From contig OY811990.1 of NCBI GenBank assembly GCA_963681505.1, positions 2,863,382-2,927,381 of the forward strand: a DNA stretch of 64,000 nt, read 5' to 3'. Each line of letters starts with the position of its first letter. Position 1 is the stretch's first letter. Below are positions 9,029 through 26,940 of the stretch, piece by piece. The notes under the pieces were generated by a model, which searched no databases, was not told the DNA's origin, and worked only from the letters and a program-made list of their open reading frames with translations. This DNA is from Eunapius fragilis (taxonomy: Eukaryota; Porifera; Demospongiae; Spongillida; Spongillidae). The position numbers and the translations under genes are program-made.

Positions 9029-9645
9029 ACCGGGTGTTCGCGAATGGTTAAACGGGAATAACTTTTGCGCGGATTGAGATAAAATCGGAGATTTTGAAAC
9101 TAACATTGTCACGCTAGGCAAAGTTGTTTGTCAACAAGTTTGGTTAATTTTTATTAATTAAAATTAATTGACTTTCTATTGCGCTTTCACTTGACCAGAT
9201 CGATGTAGATCCTTTTAACTGTTTCGTTTGTAACATAGAAAATATTTTATGACTTTTTATCACCGCGGAAAAGCTCGCAAATCCTTCAGTTACATTGGTT
9301 CGCTAAATGACGCATGCGCAGTGGATAGCGAAATGTCGGCGCCATTCCCAGGCCTAGTTAAGATCATCATTTAGCGAACCAATGTAATTGAAGGATTTGC
9401 GAGCTTTTCCGCGGTGATACGAAGTCATAAAATGTTTTCTAAGTTACAAACGAAACAGTTAAAGGGATCTACATCGATCTGGTCAAGTGAAAGCGCAATG
9501 GAAAGTCAATTAATAAAACTAACCAAACTTGTTGACAAACAATTTGCCTAGCGTGACAATGTTAGTTTCAAAATCTCCGATTTTATCTCAATCCGCGCAA
9601 AAGTTATTCCCGTTTAAAACCGTTGCTTTCATTCGCGTATAATAC
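9029..9645. mobile_element. Long foldback element
   Basis: The two halves are reverse complements over about 270 bp each, with only small indels. The left arm runs from about 9031 (CGGGTGTTCGCGAATGG) inward to 9310; the right arm runs back from 9640 to 9370. The loop holds a GC-rich ATGCGCAGTGG...GGCGCCATTCCC segment. It has no coding capacity. The flanks TATAATAC and TATAATACA may be a target duplication. Arms start with CGGGTGTTCG rather than a terminus I can assign to a superfamily. Confidence 0.8.
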
Positions 9646-11094: not shown

Positions 11095-11689
11095 GGAAAG
11101 CCTACCTACACCCAGTGGACTGCACCTTCGTGCATGTACGTGTACTTACACAGTCATTTGCTAGTAGTTTGTTATACATCTAGTTGTGCAGCTGTGCACA
11201 CAGTACAATGTACGTTTATCATGTCCCCATAGGATTGAACCTCTACTCGTGCTTGCTTCTTGTCTCCACACATACATGCGCACAACACTTGTACACACAG
11301 CACTTGTACACAGTTTCGCTGCACCTATGCACTGCCATGTGTGCTCAACTTGTTTCTTCATTCCGTCAACAGGACTGTTTAGAACAGGAGTGATTGCAGG
11401 TTTTCCCTGCCTTAAAGCCTACCTACACCCAGTGGACTGCACCTTCGTACATGTACGTGTACTTACACAGTCATTTCCTAGTAGTTTGTTATAAACATCT
11501 AGTTGTGCAGCTGTGCACACAGTACAATGTACGTTTATCATGTCCCCATAGGATTGAACCCCTACGCGTGCATGCTTCTTGTCTCCACACATGCATGTGC
11601 ACAACACTTGTACACACAACACTTGTACACAGTTTCGCTGCACCTATGCACTGCCATATGTGCTCAACTTGTTTCTTCATTCCGTCAAC

Positions 11690-11722
<33 letters not shown>

Positions 11723-13052
11723 GCCAAAATCCTGCATCCGCCCGGCCCTGAATATTGAGGGAGGGCACCTATGGTTACCTCCAGCCGGGTCCCCATGTAG
11801 ACGTGCGACCAAGTGTTGATTACATCACAATGTTCCGAGCCACATGACCAGGGGGGGGGGGGGGGGGGGGGGGGGGGGTTGCAACCACCCCTTTCAAACC
11901 AGTAATGAATAATTATCATTAGTAACAATTAAGAATTACTGCGAAGTAAAGATGGCTGAAATTCGTAATACTACTGCAGCTCTGCGAGCAAACAAACGTC
12001 AAGGCAGTATCATGACGTTATGTAGTGTTGTGCGCATGTTATAATAAAAAAGGGTTGGCAGCTGGGGCTCCGCCACAGACCCCTCCCCCGCTTCATGAAT
12101 ATTAATTAGCAACCCCCCCACCCCTTTCTGAAATCCTGGACTGTTTAGAACAGGAGTGATTGCAGGTTTTCCCTGCCTTAAAGCCTACCTACACCCAGTG
12201 GACTGCACCTTCGTACATGTGCGTGTACGTACACAGTCATTTGCTAGTGGTTTGCTACACATGTATTGGTACGTGTACATGCATACATGTAATAGCATGC
12301 ATTCAGCTGACAGTTCTCATTTTTCCTCTCTAAATACTATTCCTATGTTCACCTTGAATTTTCTTTAGCTGTTTCTATGTGCACTCATTAGTGTCTTGTG
12401 ATTGGTCCTCTGTGCATAGAAATAGTGGTTACGGTTACATGTACATGTAGTTGTTCCATGGCAAGGACACAGTGCTCGATTTACTGAAGTGTCATATCAT
12501 GAGCATTATGTGTGTCCTCAAAGTACATGTATGTTGCTCCTTACAACTGGTCCTCTGCCACGTTCCCATATGATGGTGCTTCCTAATGTGTCACCAATGT
12601 GTGTTTGTAAAATGTTGTCAAACTTGTACATATACCCCCTAAGGATGAATTTACATAAGCAAAATTGATTAGGCCATGCCTATCAAGATAAGATAACCCA
12701 GGCAGGTGTTGTGTATACATGTACCTTACAGGGTCTCTTTTGGCACAATAGTATCTTATGATGCCTTTTGGCACAACTATCTGTTTTGGATGTGTAGAGC
12801 ATACCTTTACATGTATACCTTTATCTCACACTTTTACAGTTGTGACCAACTGTGTGCTTATGTGTCTGAATGTGCTATCAAAGACGAATCGTCATCTAGC
12901 AACAACTAGAGCTAACTGAGACTGAGGTTGTGTTTATGATGGTGTGTTTATGTCACATGATCACTTCCTGTCATAAATGTTGTGGTCCCACTTTGTGTAA
13001 TTGGCTGCTGTTACTTTCAGAATTATAGGTTGTATTTAAATTGTACATGTAT
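11095..13052. repeat. Left long inverted repeat with subterminal tandem units
   Basis: The inner 0.9 kb (12205-13052) is unique within the arm and matches 16907-17765 reversed. Outside it lie about two and a half tandem units of roughly 310 bp. Each has GGACTGTTTAGAACAGGAG, a CCTACCTACACCCAGTGGAC block and a CATTCCGTCAACA end. The units start near 11095 (partial), 11371 and 12139, the last two being separated by a foreign insertion. ACATGTACATGT-type palindromes are frequent. Short open frames across the arm are not genes. Confidence 0.85.
11691..12138. mobile_element. G/C-tract element inserted in the left repeat arm
   Basis: The right arm reads straight from CCGTCAACA into GGACTGTTTAG, while the left arm has about 448 extra bases at that point. 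The insert starts with a C-tract of about 28 and TCGCCAAAATCCTGCATCCG, which is the same subterminal sequence found at the right end of the 50947-51878 element. It also has a 28-G tract and an internal GGGGCTCCGCC...CCCCTTTCTGAAATCCTGGA end. It appears to be a composite or truncated pair of non-autonomous elements of the CAGGGGCGGAT family. Confidence 0.65.
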
Positions 13053-13126
13053 GGGACATTTACAAATTCGCACTGGGGCTGTGCATAATGTGTGCTGTAT
13101 AATATGTTATGATCCAAGTCAGCACA

Positions 13127-15709
13127 TTATTGCAGTGGATGATTCTTCTTCTTATGGCTATACAATGCTTGGTAGCTTGCATACTTTTTAGTGCATAGTG
13201 GGCATAGATGATTATATTCCAACTCTGACCTTTTCCTTCTTTTTCGCACTGATATTTGTTCACTGTTTTCATCTTGATTGATCTGTCTGCCTCTTTTTTT
13301 AATTTCTTTGCTACATGTACTTGATAGTGTTGAGCTTTGACATGATGCTCCTTGCAAATCACATTCTTCCCTTACCATGATATCTGGCCCAATCACAGTA
13401 GGATGGGCAGTATTTGATTCTTCATATGGATTTGGATTGGGACAAACCTTGTCTCTATTCGATGAACAATGCACATATTATCTTACTTTTTCATACAGGT
13501 ACTGCTCTCTTGCTGGAGTAAGTCCTTTCGGAACAATAGTTAGGGGCATTTCTTTATTGTGGAAAGCATTGACAATATCACAAATCTTGATTCCTTGTTT
13601 GAGCAAGCTTATCTCTCTACCTTCATCATCTGGTGTTTTTTTCATCATCATAACTCCTGGATTATGCTTATCGAAACAAAATATGTGGTATTTGTTTATC
13701 CCAACCAAAGGAACAAACCATTTGCTTAGGTATGCATCCCAATTGTAAAAGTCCAATCTCTGCAAAGCTGTGGTATACATGATACTTCTTTTCCGCACTC
13801 TTTGACGCATTTCACTAGTTCGTCAAGTGTGTCAATACAGTTCTGCACACGGTATTGCCTTTTAAATATTCCAAAATAGGAGTCAGATCTGAAGTTTGTG
13901 TGTCCAGGTAGCATGTATTGGATATCAATTCTATGGTGCTGATCAGTTATTATACGCCATGCTAGATACCACATCATTGTTTTGTTTTTATTCTGTCCTA
14001 CACAGTTGTCAGCTTGCAATGTTGCATACGTTTCCCTTATCCCATGAAGTTCGAAGAATGCATGCAATAAACTGACAACTGAATTGGATCCCTTTCTGAT
14101 CTGTTCTGACTCATCAATGAGAAAGAAAACTTGCCTGCATAAGGGCTCACAGCAGACACCAAAAACCTGCACTTTACGAGGAGATACAAAATAAAATGTG
14201 CCTCGTTGCTGGGAACTGTATGGAATGGATACATTTTGACAAAAGTCAAAGGAATATTGCATTTGTGTATTCAAGTAGGGGTAACTAGACCGATTCTGCA
14301 ATTCATCCATCTTCACCCCTTGTCTACAAAGAGCACGCCATAGAAGTGTGGCTTTATCAATATTGGTATTGTAGGCCTCTCGTAACACTTTAGCTTCAGT
14401 TATATGCTGAATGTTGATCCTAATTCTTTCACCCTCGCTTAGGCTGTGTCGTAATGACACTAAAGCCATATCGCAAACATCGCACAGATCACTTTTGCTG
14501 GGACAGAATTTTATATTGCTGCAAAACCTGTGCCATAAATGAGTAAATGCAATGTAGCTGACACATCTATATTGCTGTTCTGTAGATGCTGCTGGAGTAG
14601 GTGACTCTGATTGAGTAGTAGTATGCACAAGTGTGTATAGCCCACTTTTTTTCGGTCAGTGTTGTTAGATTTTGCACCTTTGATGGCTGAGTTGGTGGGG
14701 ATGCTTGGATTTGTATTGCCTGGCAATATTTGTTATACACTTCTCTCATAGTGACATTGCTCTCGAGCACATAATCTCGTATCGGTCCCTTTAGGCGTCC
14801 AGGGTCTGGGAGACCATTCGTTGCTGCATACTTTCGTATGAAATTCACTACAATGCTCTTATCCCGTAGTGACAATGCATGGTGAGGAATTTTTTTACTG
14901 TTACCATGCGTTTGAGGTACTACATCATTTTTTGAAAAGGATTTTTGCAATAACTTCATAGTTTTAACTTTGAAACCAGTTACAGCACAGAATGCTGAAT
15001 AGCAAATCCGAGAAGTCCAGTCAAGGCAATAGTTGAAAGATCTTCGAGAACGTTCACCACGGGAAACAAATTCAGACTCAACATGGATCATAGCCAGCAT
15101 CCCTAATATCACTGCCTTCTTTGTAGCCTTCCTTAGTTGGGACATTGCATAAGCACGCTTTGTAGCCAAATCTTTGTACTTAATCAGGCAATTACTACTA
15201 CAGCACCCTCCATTTTTTAAGTACTCACGAAGCAAACTGCTGAGCCTACCTGGTCTGTGTGAGTTTCGCTGGTCATTTTCATTATCATCTTCGGCATTTT
15301 CATTTTCATCATCATCACCATCATCATCATCATCACCATCATCACCATCATCAGACTTGTGGTCATCATTCTGCTCATCACTATCATGACCCTCATCAAC
15401 TTGCAGATGTTCATAATCCATGTCAATGTCATCATTTTCCTGGTCATCACTATCATTCTCACTGGCCTCTTCAGGACCATCACTTTCATTTTCACAACCC
15501 ACGTCAGGACCATCACTTTCGTTTTCACAAACCGCTTCGTCTTCACAGTCCTCGTCAATTGCATCGCTATCAGTCTGAAAATCATAAACTCTGCCCTGTT
15601 CTTTGCACTGTAGAACTCGGATTCCATCGGACGGAAGGGTTTTTGCATTTTCAAGAGCGTAACAGGTTGCTATTATTATGAATTGGAATTGAAATGGCTC
15701 TGCAGACAA
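13127..15709 (-). CDS. Putative transposase, 'DNCxGQNKN' (DUF7869-like) family
   Basis: The minus-strand product, roughly 800 residues over several frames, starts at 15709. Order: an extremely acidic D/E/N-rich stretch (15250-15600); a basic region with RGERSRRSFNY and VTGFKVKTMKLLQKSF; HGN...P-HALS and GLPDPGRLKG (14790-14930); HLWHRFCSNIKFCPSKSDLCDVC (14470-14550); then a core with FDFCQNVSIPYSSQQ, LIDESE, LQADNCVGQNKNKTMMWYLA and LPGHTNFRSDSYFGIFKRQ (13840-14260); a KYHIF-FDKHNPGV block; and a C2H2 finger CPLCTKKYASYQALYSHKKKNH at the C-terminus. This order matches a family I recall as DUF7869, widespread and repetitive in invertebrates; the Asp-rich core suggests an RNase H-like fold (inference). 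The frame changes near 14650 (an A7 run), around 13750-13800 and near 13475. These are disabling frameshifts or unrecognised introns. Confidence 0.6.
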
Positions 15710-15835
15710 AGGTCTTCGAAACTAAGAATGGCGAAAATATAGAAAAGAAACGTATGTGATTAATATTCAGAACGTGCGGATATTTATAGCCATAACGCAT
15801 CGCATATAATTGAAACTCCTGCATGTATAGCCGCT
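15710..15835. promoter_or_regulatory. Divergent intergenic region, probable bidirectional promoter
   Basis: Only 126 bp separate the start codons of the minus-strand transposase-like gene (15709) and the plus-strand CtIP-like gene (15836). Any promoter must lie here or in the coding ends. The segment is AT-rich with TATTTATAG and TAATATTCAG. I see no diagnostic core-promoter element. Confidence 0.4.
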
Positions 15836-16877
15836 ATGAGTCTGACAGCAATAATAAGGGAAGGAAAACAGCTTCTGGACACAGCGATGGAGCAGGCAAT
15901 CCAATATCTTGAAGAGAACGAGTGTAAGCGCATATACAGTTTCATGCGTGCATGCCGCTCAATTACTATGCTCAAGCCCTCAAACAAAACCTACAAGATG
16001 AGAAGAGTAGAAACAAGGAATTCAAAGAAAAAATTGCGAACTTAGAAGTGATTATATCAAAGTTAGTTTGAATACTACATGTAGTGATCAATAGTATCGC
16101 ATGGGCATGGCTGTACTTCCATGTAGGCAAAAGGTCGAAATCGAACGTACCAAGGAAGCCTTATATCTGACCTCCACCCCAATGATTCCCACTACGAGTA
16201 CTGAATCTCAATGTGAACCAATATCCCCTATCATTGGTAGCAGTAGGGTAGGTTATTGTAGTAGCAGGTACAGTGGTCTTAGTAATGATACCATGCATAA
16301 CCAGGTTGGAGTTTTTCATCACAAATGCAATGAGCTTGAGGTCTGGGAAGGATCACAGGAGCTCCTGAATACAGATGATGAAGAGTTAAACCCAGAGAAA
16401 ACTGTAGTAGAGGAAACCGACCTGGAGGATACAGATGTCAACATGCCAGAAAATAAGTAAGTGCATGGACTAGCATGTGAGATCATTCAGCAAAAGCAAT
16501 ACTTTTTACGGCATGATATTGCTGCATTAATTGCAGGAACACAAACCAAACAAATAAAAGAGTAAAGGGTCCCAGTTACAAGTACTTGGTCTGGCCCTAT
16601 CAGAAAAAAAAAAGATCGCGACAAGCTGAATGCCAAACCTTGCCATGATTGTGAAAAGGTACTGTTTAAAATGTTGTATACTCAAAAGCTTTAACAAATA
16701 GTTCCAATGCAGTGGTTTGCATCAGGAGCCGGTGGTATACACCAAGATCAAAGAGAACATCTCAGGAGTGTGTGCAGACACAAGCATCTTCACCTACCAC
16801 CTGACAGTGACCCTCGTGTGTGGGACATTAGTTTTTCTGACAGTGAAGAGTGTGAGCGCATCATGGCACCAAAGTGA
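15836..16877 (+). CDS. CtIP/Sae2-like DNA-end-processing protein encoded in element
   Basis: A spliced plus-strand gene. The N-terminal part (15836-16068) is helical, with an ALKQNLQDEKSRNKEFKEKI coiled-coil segment. The middle exon (to 16456) is acidic and Ser/Thr-rich. An 80-bp intron (16457-16536, GTAAGT...TTGCAG) joins in phase to an exon with KGPSYKYLV, KKK and DRDKLNAKPCHDCEK. A 54-bp intron (16659-16712) joins in phase 0 to the last exon with REHLRSVCRHKHLHLPP and DPRVWDISFSDSEEC. CxxC, then RH(R/K), then PPxxxPxxxWxxxF is the signature of the C-terminal domain of CtIP/Ctp1/Sae2, which binds DNA and stimulates Mre11 nuclease. The Cys before RHK is one residue closer than in human CtIP. 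Frame disagreement at an A10 run (16603-16612) and in exon 1 may be decay or assembly error. The family call is from memory, without alignment. Confidence 0.6.
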
Positions 16878-16906
16878 CTTTGTAGATCTGTCGTATTATC
16901 TTAAAC

Positions 16907-18235
16907 ACAACATACATGTACGATTTTGAAAGTAACAGCAGCCAATTACACAAAGAGGAACCACAACATTTATGACAGGAAGTGATCATGTGACATAAAC
17001 ACACCATCATAAACACAACCTCAGTCTCAGTTAGCTCTAGTTGTTGCTAGATGACGATTCGTCTTTGATAGCACATTCAGACACATAAGCACACAGTTGG
17101 TCACAACTGTAAAAGTGTGAGATAAAGGTATACATGTAAAGGTATGCTCTACACATACATCCAGCTACAAAACAGATAGTTGTGCCAAAAGGCATCATAA
17201 GATACTATTGTGCCAAAAGAGACCCTGTAAGGTACATGTATACACAACACCTGCCTGGGTTATCTTATCTTGATAGGCATGGCCTAATCAATTTTGCTTA
17301 TGTAAACTCATCCTTAGGGGGTATATGTACAAGTTTGACAACACTTTACAAACACACATTGGTGACACATTAGGAAGCACCATCATATGGGAACGTGGCA
17401 GAGGACCAGTTGTAAGGACCAACATACATGTACTTTGAGGACACACATAATGCTCATGATATGACACTTCAGTATAAATCGAGCACTGTGTCCTTGCCAT
17501 GGAACAACTACATGTACATGTAACCGTAACCACTATTTCTATGCACAGAGGACCAATCACAAGACACTAATGTGTGCACATAGAAACAGCTAAATAAAAT
17601 TCAAGGTGAACATAGGTATAGTATTTAGAGAGGAAAAATGAGAACTGTCAGCTGAATGCATGCTATTACATGTATGCATGTACACGTACCAATACATGTG
17701 TAGCAAACCACTAGCAAATGACTGTGTACGTACACGTACATGTACGAAGGTGCAGTCCACTGAGTGTAGGTAGGCTTTAAGGCAGGGAAAACCTGCAATC
17801 ACTCCTGTTCTAAACAGTCCTGTTGACGGAATGAAGAAACAAGTTGAGCACACATGGCAGTGCATAGGTGCAGCGAAACTGTGTACAAGTGCTGTGTGTA
17901 CATGTGTTGTGCGCATGTATGTGTGGAGACAAGAAGCATGCACGTGTAGAGGTTCAATCCTATGGGGACATGATAAACGTACATTGTACTGTGTGCACAG
18001 CTTCACAACTAGATGCATAACAAACTACTAGGAAATGACTGTGTAGGTACACGTACATGTACGAAGGTGCAGTCCACTGGCTGTAGGTAGGCTTTAAGGC
18101 AGGGAAAACCTGCAATCACTCCTGTTCTAAACAGTCCTGTTGACGGAATGAAGAAACAAGTTGAGCACACATGGCAGTGCATAGGTGCTGTGTACAAGTG
18201 CATGCGTGTACGTGTTGTGTGTGCATGTGTTTAGG
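16907..18235. repeat. Right long inverted repeat with subterminal tandem units
   Basis: This is the reverse complement of the left arm. The inner unique part (16907-17765) matches 12205-13052 with a few per cent differences and small indels. The outer part holds one full and one shortened 310-bp unit (17766-18070 and 18071-18235), against about two and a half on the left. Both arms carry the CAGGTGTTGTGTATACATG and TTGGCACAATAGTATCTTATG blocks. Confidence 0.85.
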
Positions 18236-19145
18236 GTGCAGCACAGGGGTAGGGTGGAGTCCACTCAATAGCTAACTTAAAAGAGGGCCTGCTCCATGGC
18301 TGACACTGTTCATGTAACTGTAGGGTGGGTGGAGTCCACTCAAAAGAGAGTCCACTCCATCGCTAACACTGTTCACTGTAAGGAATGGGTATAGGGTGCA
18401 GTGCGGGAGGTAGGGTGGAGGGGTCATAGCTGTACATGTGCATGTATCTGGCATAGGGGTCACGTTATGGCTTTTTGCAGTAGTGTCACTCCACAGCTGC
18501 TTGCTATAAGTTAGACACATGTCTGTCTGCTTCACATATGTCATTGCTGTGTGGTTCTGCCATATGGGCCACTCCACAGCTGTTTGCCTGCCGTATGCTG
18601 GTCCACTCATTATCGTCGAAGTCTGTCCACTGGGTCTGCAGTATAGGGTCCACTTCATACAGTAGATGTCCATATACAGTAGATGTCTGCCACAGGGTCC
18701 ACTCAGTAGGGTTCACTCGATACAGTATTCAGGTAGATATCTGCAGTAGAGTCTATTCCATATGGTGCAGTGTTGATGTCCACTACCTACATGTGTTGTC
18801 TACTATTTGGTCTGCTCCACACTCGTTTGTAGTTGTTCCACTGTCTTCTGGACACACCTATCTGCCTGCCATCTCTACAGCTGTTTACTGCTGGAGTCCA
18901 TTCCACAGCTCTGCCTGGTTTTGTTTCACAGTTATACTTATCCTCTGTCGTATTTTCTGCCATATAGGGTCCATTGCATAGCTGCCTGCCTTAGGGTTAC
19001 TCCATGCCGTCTGCTGCGGTGCTCATTCCACTGCTGTCTGCCGTAGGATAGTAGCTGCGTACTGCATGTAGTTACTCCACTGTCTGCCATACTCCACAGC
19101 TGTCCACTACGGGAACTCGTCTGCGGTGCTCCACAGCTAGTTACC
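18236..19145. repeat. Degenerate GTCCACT/CCACAGCTG minisatellite
   Basis: About 900 bp built from loose repeats of GTCCACTC, CCACAGCTG, CTGCCATA and TATAGGGTCCACT at irregular 25-60 bp spacing. Open frames through it are repeat translations. It abuts the outer end of the right repeat arm and has no counterpart beside the left arm, so it is probably flanking DNA. Confidence 0.6.
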
Positions 19146-20025
19146 GCTACCGCTCTCAAACTTCTTTGATCTTCGTCTTCGAAATCACAGGCGAAAAGCA
19201 AATTATTCAGGTCCCCAGACAACTTACATTGCGTCACAGTGATGGTGGGTGGGGTGGTTGTGATGTAGTTGAATATTCATGTATACATCGGTGAATGGGA
19301 TCGGTTCGCGCAGATACAACGGCGCGATTCGAGCGGGAAACTTGTACTTACTTTGCACAGCTGTATCTCCGCAATGGATAACATAAAATTTAACGAACAG
19401 AACAAATCAATAGCTGCAGGACCTCTCTACCGACAAACCGAATTTGGAGCGATTTGATTACTCCTGCCGAAAGTTATGGCGGGTTTGAACCCCTTGGGGT
19501 ATCGGACATCGCGATACTGGCATGGAGCATGTTCAAGATCCCAATGTATTTTACAATAGAGAAATGGTATAGTATGAAGTGCTGAAAATAGGAAGACGAT
19601 AGCGTTAACCGTTCGGAAGTTATAGCAATTCAAACGTAATGCATTTTTATTATGCTTTATAATAATACACGCTAGGTCCCTTTTCTCGGAAACTTTCCCA
19701 TTTGTAGCTTTTATTCTATGCAATGGAATAAAATGGAGGTGGACACTAGTATAATTTATGCTTTTAAAGTGTAAGTGGCTTAACTGAAATGAGATTATAG
19801 TCAATTTATAGAAATAGCTGTTCAGCATTGGGTAAGATTCACGCAGTATGTAGAATAACACGCTCAGCTATTATCCCTAGAAACCTTCAAATAGAGTAAA
19901 AAATAGTCTAGGGATAGCCATAGAACACCGTTCTGTTTTGTTTCTAATTAACGGTACTACATCAATTAAACGTAATTTTGCAAGGAAATAATCTCACCAT
20001 TTGGTATGATATCACCCTCACGAGT
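19146..20025. other. No gene recognised
   Basis: No protein family, RNA gene or repeat structure is visible. A 144-residue minus-strand frame (19427-19861) has no recognisable domain. Confidence 0.35.
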
Positions 20026-23256: not shown

Positions 23257-24252
23257 TTAAGAGCAAATTGACCACGTCTGAACACATGGCATGCATGTGG
23301 ATATTACTAGTAGGATATATTGTTTAATTGCGTAATTGCGTTCATCTAAACATGCCATTCATATTTGTGAAAATTTTAAAATATTGAATACAAAAATGTC
23401 TGAAGCTAAGTATTCTTTTTTTCAGCCCTTTCATTGGTAAATAACACTGTGCAAAAAACCTAGTATACGCTAGCGTATATTTTTGCGTATATTTCGCGTA
23501 TACCATCAATATACCAAGGGTAGTGTATATTTCGAATATCCACCTGGTAAATTTCAAGAATCCCTAGGTGACAATTATTCATTGTGCGTATTCTCGAAAT
23601 ATCACGAATACGCACACCGCAATGAATTATGCAACGCATTCAAATCTAAATAACTTACATGTATAACTTTGATATGAATAATTTGAAGCCTCCTATGTGA
23701 ATTCGAACGTAGAGCATTATGGACGTTTACCACATGAACTATAAGCGTCGGTACGTATCTAAGATATTAATGATGCATGGCATGGCTTAACAAGTGGTTA
23801 AGATAAGTGAGGAGGACAGGAATGGGGGGGTGTATGCCAGGGTTATGTGTTATCGCATGCGCGCGTCACGTGTGTTATGCTGTGCGATATTGACCAGTGC
23901 ATGGGTACTTTTGGCAACACTAGCTAAGTTAACGAATGCGTAATTGTATGCTGTATACCAATGGGTCAATGTGTCTACCGGATGGTAGGAAGCATGGGAG
24001 GCCATGTTTGACCGGGGTCAATCTTTGTAACCAGGTAGCCCAGCAGGGTGGTGAATTGGCCGCCCATACAACCATATATTTGCAGCTCATCATTTACATC
24101 AGCCATTGTTTTAAAGTGTGTGAGGGAGCAGGAGTATGGTCACGATCCTCAGTGAGAAGTTCCTAGAGTTGCAGAGGTTAGCTGATATGGTTCCTGACAA
24201 ATAGGCCAACAGTATGATCACCACTGAAATAGCAGTGACACCTTGTGGTCTT

Positions 24253-25870
24253 GGCACTTGAAAGGTGAGTTGTACCATTGAATGTATTGCACACTGGCAC
24301 GTAATCACCACCAGACGTTGAGGACAGTATGTCCCTAAAGCTTTTCATGCTTTGAGACCTTTCAACCTTGATGGGGTCATTGGAGTCACGTGACTTTGGT
24401 GGGCGTGGTACTTGAAAGGTGAGTTGTACCATTTAATATATTGCACACTTGCATGTAATCACCACCAGACGTTGAGGACAGTATGTCCCTAAAGCTTTTC
24501 ATGCTTTGAGACCTTTCAACCTTGATGGGGTCTTGGAGTCACGTGACTTTGGTGGGCGTGGCACTTGAAAGGTGAGTTGCACCATTTAATGTATTGCACA
24601 CTTGCACGTAATCACCACCAGACGTTGAGGACAGTATGTCCCTAAAGCTTTTCATGCTTTGAGACCTTTCAACCTTGATGGGGTCATTGGAGTCACGTGA
24701 CTTTGGTGGGCGTGGTACTTGAAAGGTGAGTTGTACCATTGAATGTATTGCACACTGGCACGTAATCACCACCAGACGTTGAGGACAGTATGTCCCAAAA
24801 GCTTTTCATGCTTTGAGACCTTTCAACCTTGATGGGGTCATTGGAGTCACGTGACTTTGGTGGGCGTGGCACTTGAAAGGTGAGTTGTACCATTGAATGT
24901 ATTGCACACTGGCACGTAATCACCACCAGACGTTGAGGACAGTATGTCCCTAAAGCTTTTCATGCTTTGAGACCTTTCAACCTTGATGGGGTCATTGGAG
25001 TCACGTGACTTTGGTGGGCGTGGCACTTGAAAGGTGAGTTGTACCATTGAATGTATTGCACACTGGCACGTAATCACCACCAGACGTTGAGGACAGTATG
25101 TCCCTAAAGCTTTTCATGCTTTGAGACCTTTCAACCTTGATGGGGTCATTGGAGTCACGTGACTTTGGTGGGCGTGGTACTTGAAAGGTGAGTTGTACCA
25201 TTGAATGTATTGCACACTGGCACGTAATCACCACCAGACGTTGAGGACAGTATGTCCCTAAAGCTTTTCATGCTTAGAGACCTTTCAACCTTGATGGGGT
25301 CATTGGAGTCACGTGACTTTGGTGGGCGTGGTACTTGAAAGGTGAGTTGTACCATTGAATGTATTGCACACTGGCATGTAATCACCACCAGACGTTGAGG
25401 ACAGTATGTCCCTAAAGCTTTTCATGCTTTGAGACCTTTCAACCTTGATGGGGTCATTGGAGTCACGTGACTTTGGTGGGCGTGGTACTTGAAAGGTGAG
25501 TTGTACCATTTAATATATTGCACACTTGCATGTAATCACCACCAGACGTTGAGGACAGTATGTCCCTAAAGCTTTTCATGCTTTGAGACCTTTCAACCTT
25601 GATGGGTCATTGGAGTCACGTGACTTTGGTGGGCGTGGTACTTGAAAGGTGAGTTGTACCATTGAATGTATTGCACACTGGCACGTAATCACCACCAGAC
25701 GTTGAGGACAGTATGTCCCTAAAGCTTTTCATGCTTTGAGACCTTTCAACCTTGATGGGGTCATTGGAGTCACGTGACTTTGGTGGGCGTGGTACTTGAT
25801 AAGGTGAGTTGTACCATTTAATATATTGCACACTTGCACGTAATCACCACCAGACCTTGAGGACAGTATG
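24253..25870. repeat. 154-bp tandem array, about 10.5 units
   Basis: The palindrome GTCACGTGAC recurs at 24384, 24538, 24692, 24846, 25000, 25154, 25308, 25462, 25615 and 25769: nine intervals, eight of exactly 154 and one of 153. Units differ by only a few bases. Each unit also carries CTTGAAAGGTGAGTTG, a consensus-like splice donor on the plus strand. Because 154 is not a multiple of three, the minus-strand frames shift each unit and the repeated peptide is not a protein repeat. Spacing close to nucleosomal DNA length may be coincidence. Confidence 0.95.
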
Positions 25871-26940
25871 TGACCATATCTTCCTCTTCCCCCCCCCCCC
25901 CCCCCCCATCTCTCTTTCCAACCCCTCTCTTTCTATTTCACTCTTACTGGATATCCATAATGCTCCATTTATACGCAGCACCCATTTATTAATACAAAAT
26001 TCAGTTAGTAATTTCAATTGGAGCCAAGCACAACGTGGCTTGAGCGGAAAAATTACCGTTCAACGTTCTATTCGTCGAGATGAGAAACTGTTGGTGTTGG
26101 TTAGTTGCAAAATGCATTGGCTAATTGGCGGCTCTTCATCCGACAGATTGTACAATGCCCCATTTGCTGAACGCGCGTGGTTGGCTTCAATCTCTAAGAC
26201 CGTTTCGAATCTTGAGAACGTAACTGCATTGTGTCGCGATCAGGTATCTCATTCTCTCACCATTATGATTTCCCGTAACACGTGGATAGTACCTCAACCG
26301 GTGGTAAGTAATCATCACCTTTTTTTTCTCGAGTCAAATTTAGAGACGTCATAAAAACTAGCAAAGGCAGAGCGGGTAAGAGATTGCGTTTTCATTCACA
26401 CTTGCTGTTTATCAGTGTCTGTTGTCAGAATTGAATTGAATACAAATTATACGAAGAGCGGAGATAGAGAAGTAGCGGATTGCTTTGGAGTATAAGGTAA
26501 AGGCTTCGTTTGTTTTAACCCTGTATATTCCCTGCAGCTAGACAAGGAAAGCTCAGATTCAGCTGAGCTTGTCAAGCAATCCCGCCGTCAGTGTAGGCCT
26601 CTGTTTGCATTTGTATCGTATGGATGCTCTATTTTGCTGTAGCTATATGGACTATGGTGACAGTACAGGGAAGCAGTTTGAAGCCTACGATCAACTACTG
26701 CCGCGCGTTTCGTTAGAAGAGGTTGCAATGGATTTCTGAGCAACTCGTGGCAACGGCGGGTTGGAGGGCCACTACTGGAGTATCTCCTTTCTTGATGGCT
26801 GGAGAGTTTGAACGTTGTCTATTGATTGTATTGCTTTATTTATTATTGATAATAATTTTAATACTAATCAAGCCAGTATACAACGAACATAATCGGGTGG
26901 CGTACCCAATACAGTATACGGTCAACGTAGGTACTGTGTA
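25871..26940. other. Unassigned interior of the CACTA-like element
   Basis: Opens with a run of 18 C at about 25890. A 181-residue frame (25809-26354) has no recognised domain; its first part is repeat and C-tract translation. Nothing resembles a CACTA transposase or a captured host exon I can name. Confidence 0.4.

Follow-up and report, generated by a model that had tools for sequence, protein, structure and literature searches.

What kind of genetic unit places a DUF7869 gene and a CtIP/Sae2-like gene back to back between long inverted arms in the freshwater sponge Eunapius fragilis, and what might the second gene do there? The locus lies within a stretch of 64,000 nucleotides (the window, C20:2863382-2927381), and copies of it were sought in the same genome, which comprises 219 Mb in 24 contigs. 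An earlier note, made from the window alone, had proposed a mobile element with a putative transposase of its own. The unit is, in all likelihood, a cut-and-paste DUF7869 transposon that carries a CtIP-type accessory gene. Its features in the window are the following:

11095..19700, no strand: transposon copy, left end truncated and right end complete, from blastn against other copies
11097..13023, no strand: left arm, inverted with respect to the right arm, outer part missing, from self-comparison of the window and other copies
11691..12137, no strand: 447-bp insertion within the left arm, seen as a gap when L009, L010, L011 and L013 are aligned with it by blast
13127..15648, minus strand: DUF7869 gene, broken in the window, open over 851 aa in L009 and L010
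15836..15923, plus strand: CtIP-like exon 1, splice model, GT-AG borders, identical in L009 and L010
15977..16061, plus strand: CtIP-like exon 2, coil-like by eye, splice model
16127..16456, plus strand: CtIP-like exon 3, splice model
16537..16658, plus strand: CtIP-like exon 4, with CxxC, frame-shifted in the window copy, splice model
16713..16877, plus strand: CtIP-like exon 5, with CRHKH...PPDSDPRVWDISF, SAE2 domain, from profile match and copies
16923..19700, no strand: right arm, complete, 2.8 kb, its outer part aligning with L009 and L013 in both arms and with portions of L010 and L011
17688..18188, no strand: right-arm portion of the 317-bp tandem array, unit number varying among copies
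19313..19700, no strand: outer 390 bp, with 76-78% homology to element ends from two further DUF7869 families
19671..19700, no strand: terminal sequence, TGGG-N12-AAAA when read inwards

The element and its copies

The inverted arms described in the earlier note are present (11097-13023 against 16923-18188), the six longest blocks being 96-99% complementary and the shorter ones, which pair different tandem units, 85-92%. The extent proposed there, 11095-18235, has to be redrawn on the right, where the arm continues to 19700; the left bound of 11095 stands, but as a truncation, and the window therefore contains the right true end alone. From the inside outwards, the right arm consists of about 0.8 kb, two 317-bp units, about 1.1 kb and the outer 390 bp. 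The array of 317-bp units in the arms varies among copies, so that copies with more units have arms longer than the 2.8 kb of the window. The 447-bp insertion in the left arm contains long C and G runs. Between the arms the two genes diverge as had been claimed, DUF7869 on the minus strand and the gene with the SAE2/CtIP C-terminus on the plus strand; the gap of 126 bp ascribed to them has to be corrected, since arithmetic from the gene models gives 187 bp between the two ATGs. Both reported genes were identified, but both are broken in the window copy, where the DUF7869 gene is disrupted by at least three frame changes and one stop.

The same structure recurs in the genome. A probe of 601 bp, taken from the transposase end, recovered the window copy, three full-length matches at 98-99% and shorter or diverged ones, and L009, L010, L011 and L013 (copies or large parts of them) match the window element at about 92-98%. 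The last exon of the CtIP-like gene has at least six copies at 95-100%, window included (C20, C23, C9 twice, C7 and C16), and at least 12 weaker matches at ten places; these counts, like those of termini given below, are lower bounds. In all six copies, distributed over five contigs, the CtIP-like gene is divergent from all or part of the DUF7869 gene, and in two (L009 and L010) both genes are intact. Five of the six contain the inner arm (238 bp) at two places and the C16 copy at one; two further matches, both partial, lie elsewhere. In the C16 copy the first 157-158 codons of the DUF7869 gene are readable up to the edge of the locus, within which no DUF7869 domain, left inner arm or match to the 601-bp probe was found; the 3' part of the gene is missing or undetected. 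The C7 copy is internally deleted and lacks the first 187 codons of the DUF7869 gene. The recurrence of a divergent pair inside inverted repeats, by which the earlier note had proposed to judge the idea, is thus seen in six copies, and its opposite, a DUF7869 gene that never has the CtIP-like neighbour, is contradicted by the same six.

The element is bounded by the tips TGGGAAAG...CTTTCCCA, with arms of at least 2.8 kb. A terminus probe gave at least 41 matches (40 of 341 candidates scored), 29 of the 41 stopping at query base 122; this base is window 19701, directly after CCCA, and together with the comparison of flanks it sets the right terminus. Facing termini, defined by position alone as ends that face each other within 25 kb, form 14 pairs separated by 409 to 20,560 bp. 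Three of these pairs enclose a CtIP-like match and two a DUF7869 match; neither is present in the remaining 11, which presumably are elements moved in trans. Where both ends were read (11 elements) the tips are again TGGGAAAG and CTTTCCCA, with single-base variants just inside them at two right ends and one left end, and the flanks are TA/TA in nine, AA/AA in one and mismatched in one, all of these being filled sites and many lying in TA repeats. The hallmarks of DDD/E transposons are therefore found: terminal inverted repeats, a target duplication of fixed length and copies at several unrelated sites. The mobility postulated by the earlier note is borne out by multiple copies, TA sites and different flanks. 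At L089 (C11:6384690-6384945) two facing element ends have TATA alone between them (CCCATATATGGG), which looks as if one element had been inserted at the target of another.

The DUF7869 protein and its bacterial relatives

The DUF7869 protein is very probably the transposase of the element, as the earlier note had suspected, because its predicted structure has an RNase H-like fold with a conserved D-D-D triad at D479, D558 and D600, because the element has homologous ends in two other families and because bacterial DUF7869 genes lie in elements that resemble insertion sequences (IS). Sequence and structural model thus strongly suggest transposase activity and provide a likely function for this Pfam domain. 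The domain is matched at E 1e-14 in the window copy and with 65.5 bits (PF25273) in the L009 protein. The structure referred to was obtained with a deeper alignment, a first model (15 sequences, pLDDT 42) having been dropped. With this model, Foldseek against PDB and viral models gave no match at E <=0.001 (VIA-listed families), and no relative was found in the viral contigs searched. Pfam scans returned DUF7869, zinc fingers and weak unrelated matches, and NCBIfam transposase models had no match in two bacterial DUF7869 proteins and two others. The named protein matches come from Ephydatia muelleri, and no paper on DUF7869 was found in the open-licence literature.

A likeness to Tc1/mariner elements lies in the TA target duplication (9 of 11) and in Mos1, which is among the best structural matches of the model. 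The element differs from them in its larger protein with a C2H2-like finger at the end, in the 41 residues that separate the second and third Asp, in its TGGG ends and in the lack of a match to any mariner/DDE model in Pfam.

At seven of ten bacterial loci (L100, L101, L102, L098, L103, L106 and L099) the DUF7869 gene is found in IS-like elements of 2.05-2.7 kb, bounded by inverted repeats about 40-60 bp long that begin with TGGG (TGGC at one of the 14 ends) and have AAAA at positions 17-20. TGGG-N12-AAAA is common to sponge and bacterial element ends (one neighbouring sponge end has TAAA), a signature noticed only after the ends had been seen. Across the ten bacterial loci, which together offer 128,524 positions, it occurs 20 times, and 13 of these occurrences are, by pattern, the ends themselves. 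When the flanks were compared for a target duplication, three of the seven elements showed a 2-bp match. L097 and L105 have no pair of terminal inverted repeats and no signature whatever; L104, whose contig starts inside the element, has no such pair either and one fitting end at 1798. In the held-out genome G058 the left end fits and no right end appeared within the stretch that was read, while the second held-out genome, G180, turned out to be the same contig as L099. The bacterial elements possibly constitute an unnamed insertion-sequence family, and the DUF7869 group by itself is possibly a new superfamily of transposases. The common terminal signature links sponge transposons with IS-like elements of bacteria. 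Eukaryotic transposons with bacterial IS kin have been described in IS481EU and Zator (PMC10045372, PMC7386202, in the parts available), so that, by description, the occurrence of one transposase family in both kinds of element is shared with them; by description too, they are set apart from the present elements, whose transposase family is DUF7869.

The CtIP/Sae2-like gene and its distribution

In the intact copies the CtIP-like gene codes for 261 aa in five exons, with GT-AG introns of 53, 65, 80 and 54 bp. Position and exon borders are identical in the five of six copies with readable borders, and the E. muelleri gene model P0009 gives the same reading across the last intron. Across 73% of the query the relative in E. 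muelleri matches at 61%, and that species has a second such model. The kinship with CtIP/Sae2 that had been proposed is sustained by the SAE2 C-terminal domain (PF08573), the sole Pfam match of the protein: its score against a cut-off of 19.8 bits is 24.7 for the C-terminal part alone and a marginal 19.9 for the spliced 261-aa protein, the window exon alone giving E 0.08. The protein also shares with CtIP/Sae2/Ctp1/COM1, by eye, CxxC and CRHK...PP...WD. It departs from them in being encoded by a transposon, in having only 261 aa, in giving no match to CtIP_N (PF10482, of animal CtIP) at E 0.1 and in having SDP in place of TP. Human CtIP has a TP site in the C-terminal domain, whereas a TP/SP site of the cyclin-dependent kinase type was absent by eye from this domain, which reads SDP in the element and TDP in the gene on C3. 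No gene anywhere in the genome was found over the CtIP_N cut-off, and a search of solved structures with the CtIP-like protein gave one chance match only (E 0.78).

The ratio of non-synonymous to synonymous substitutions (dN/dS), obtained by simple counting, is 0.07-0.15 between the last exon and its C4, C12, C15 and C3 copies (40-50 codons, dS 1.25-2.7); as judged from these sequences, the C-terminal domain is conserved between diverged copies. Closer copies gave 0.22 and 0.44, and the window exon differs from that of L010 by two amino-acid changes and no silent one.

The pair is not, however, a general rule for DUF7869. When 90 matches were clustered at 5 kb, 46 DUF7869 loci were obtained, of which five, all belonging to the family of the window element, have a CtIP-like match within 10 kb and 41 have none. 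Neither the 4.4-5.7 kb that were read upstream of the diverged relatives L012, L014, L015 and L016 (74-78% DNA identity over 1-2.2 kb) nor the upstream stretches of four other DUF7869 families (L092-L096) gave a CtIP match, whether by tblastn (E 0.1) or by a profile search with its threshold applied. A general DUF7869-CtIP pair was accordingly rejected. Since no CtIP match was obtained in the diverged relatives, either one lineage gained the gene or the others lost it; on sequence grounds it is a family-specific accessory gene, because the pair is confined to five of 46 loci and because CtIP-like repeats exist without DUF7869.

Two of the four other families (891 and 991 aa) have a clear homologous terminus, L095 has a 17-bp match to a tip only, and L094 (C22) has no homologous terminus in 1.2 kb. 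The 891-aa family, in which no CtIP match was found between open reading frame and terminus, has five intact copies (L037-L041, on C3, C6 three times and C7) that are 99.9-100% identical over 3.5 kb and have a tandem array downstream; this family has probably been active very recently.

Away from the element, CtIP-like sequences have no DUF7869 match within 10 kb. L058, L060 and L061, and likewise L063 and L064, form two further repeat groups with decayed CtIP-like genes, and a short intron is present at the same place in those of L058, L061 and L063/L064. Similarity reaches 96% over 1.1 kb in the C4/C15 group (C12 at 84-91%) and 94% over 1.8 kb in the C18/C9 group. The 3 kb read beyond two non-element copies contain, by eye, retroelement- or integrase-like frames and no DUF7869 match. 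The best SAE2 score of those scanned, 31.4 bits, belongs to L059 (C3:610977), which is possibly a host gene or the donor; it has a longer intron and N letters upstream.

A possible role in repair and the rival explanations

DNA transposons largely leave the repair of their cuts to the host, and several lineages carry YqaJ, exonucleases or RecQ. A CtIP/Sae2-type gene would extend these transposon-borne repair genes to the step at which joining or copying is chosen. The target of Kolobok elements is TTAA. The accessible parts of the literature describe a YqaJ accessory gene in ISL2EU (PHIS superfamily) and nuclease accessory genes in Kolobok lineages (D, E, P and H), both of which resemble the present element in combining a DNA transposon with a gene of this sort. 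ISL2EU is distinguished by another transposase family and by its A|AT|T target, and the sponge element by its CtIP/Sae2-type gene, TA target and very long arms; YqaJ is absent from the element, whose two genes match DUF7869 and SAE2. The Kolobok transposase is not DUF7869, the element's target is TA rather than TTAA, and the term 'ctip' is absent from the text of the Kolobok-lineage paper.

According to the portions of the papers available, in yeast it is MRX and Sae2 that open the hairpin-capped ends found at inverted repeats (PMC3855049), and Mre11 and CtIP/Sae2 take part in resection (PMC3894167). Both activities would be of use to an element whose inverted arms are long and whose donor site has been cut. 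The mechanism proposed here starts from a DUF7869 transposase (RNase H fold, D-D-D) that recognises TGGG-type ends and inserts at TA, and from the acquisition by this family of a CtIP/Sae2-type gene divergent from that of the transposase. Once the transposase had excised the element, the CtIP-like protein could join the host Mre11-Rad50-Nbs1 at the cut ends and at the hairpins or cruciforms of the long inverted arms, and open and resect the ends; the donor gap would then be copied rather than directly joined, and this repair would restore or multiply the element. By its domain the protein may act in hairpin opening or donor-break resection; its interaction with Mre11 and the bias in repair are put forward weakly, as plausible rather than probable. 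The deleted C7 copy and the same-ended elements of many sizes fit interrupted copying repair and are not diagnostic of it.

As a tentative overall reading, less likely than not, DUF7869 would define a superfamily of transposases, so far undescribed, with members in bacteria and in sponges. One of its sponge lineages would have evolved inverted arms of at least 2.8 kb and acquired a CtIP/Sae2-type gene as a dedicated cofactor for resection, by means of which it would withstand the palindromes of its arms and direct donor repair to copying. It would be the first transposon known with its own end-resection activator; none with a CtIP/Sae2-type gene was found in the titles and abstract starts of the open-licence literature. 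If this role is true, the element may carry its own repair helper, and the compact natural protein could be used to probe what the C-terminal domain of CtIP is able to do.

The main rival, itself rather unlikely, is a passenger role, in which the CtIP-like gene, taken from the host, is carried along without helping the transposase. Its introns are those expected of a captured host gene, it accompanies only five of 46 DUF7869 loci, its close copies show no constraint, and one DUF7869 family that lacks it has multiplied recently, to five near-identical copies. Against a mere passenger stand the conserved C-terminal exon (dN/dS 0.07-0.15 between diverged copies), the two copies with both genes intact together and the related gene in E. 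muelleri. A compact protein that has the C-terminal domain and no recognised CtIP_N could also be a dominant-negative form or decoy directed at host resection or checkpoint signalling, favouring fast joining or escape from surveillance; this is improbable, for the C-terminal domain is the activating part of CtIP/Sae2 and it is precisely this part that appears to be kept between diverged copies, with no sign of activity loss in the sequence.

Just as improbable is that the CtIP-like gene is here by chance, belonging to a mobile unit of its own or passing from element to element independently. CtIP-like repeats without a nearby DUF7869 match (C4/C15/C12 and C18/C9) point in that direction, but the gene has the same position and the same exon borders in five of six copies, and no arm of two known DUF7869 families was matched in 3-kb stretches beside the other CtIP-like copies. 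Lastly, the arms seen from the window alone look like a local inverted duplication around two host genes, with no transposon involved. The earlier note had named such a one-off duplication as the outcome that would defeat its idea; the recurrence of this structure elsewhere, between different flanks and at a TA target, rules it out and leaves this explanation a negligible chance.

Two further repeats were observed in the window. Near the element, positions 9048-9617 consist of 570 bp of nested inverted repeats, with arms of 75 and 148 nt, and positions 24245-25871 contain an array of tandem units, each about 154 bp long, that are 95-98% alike.

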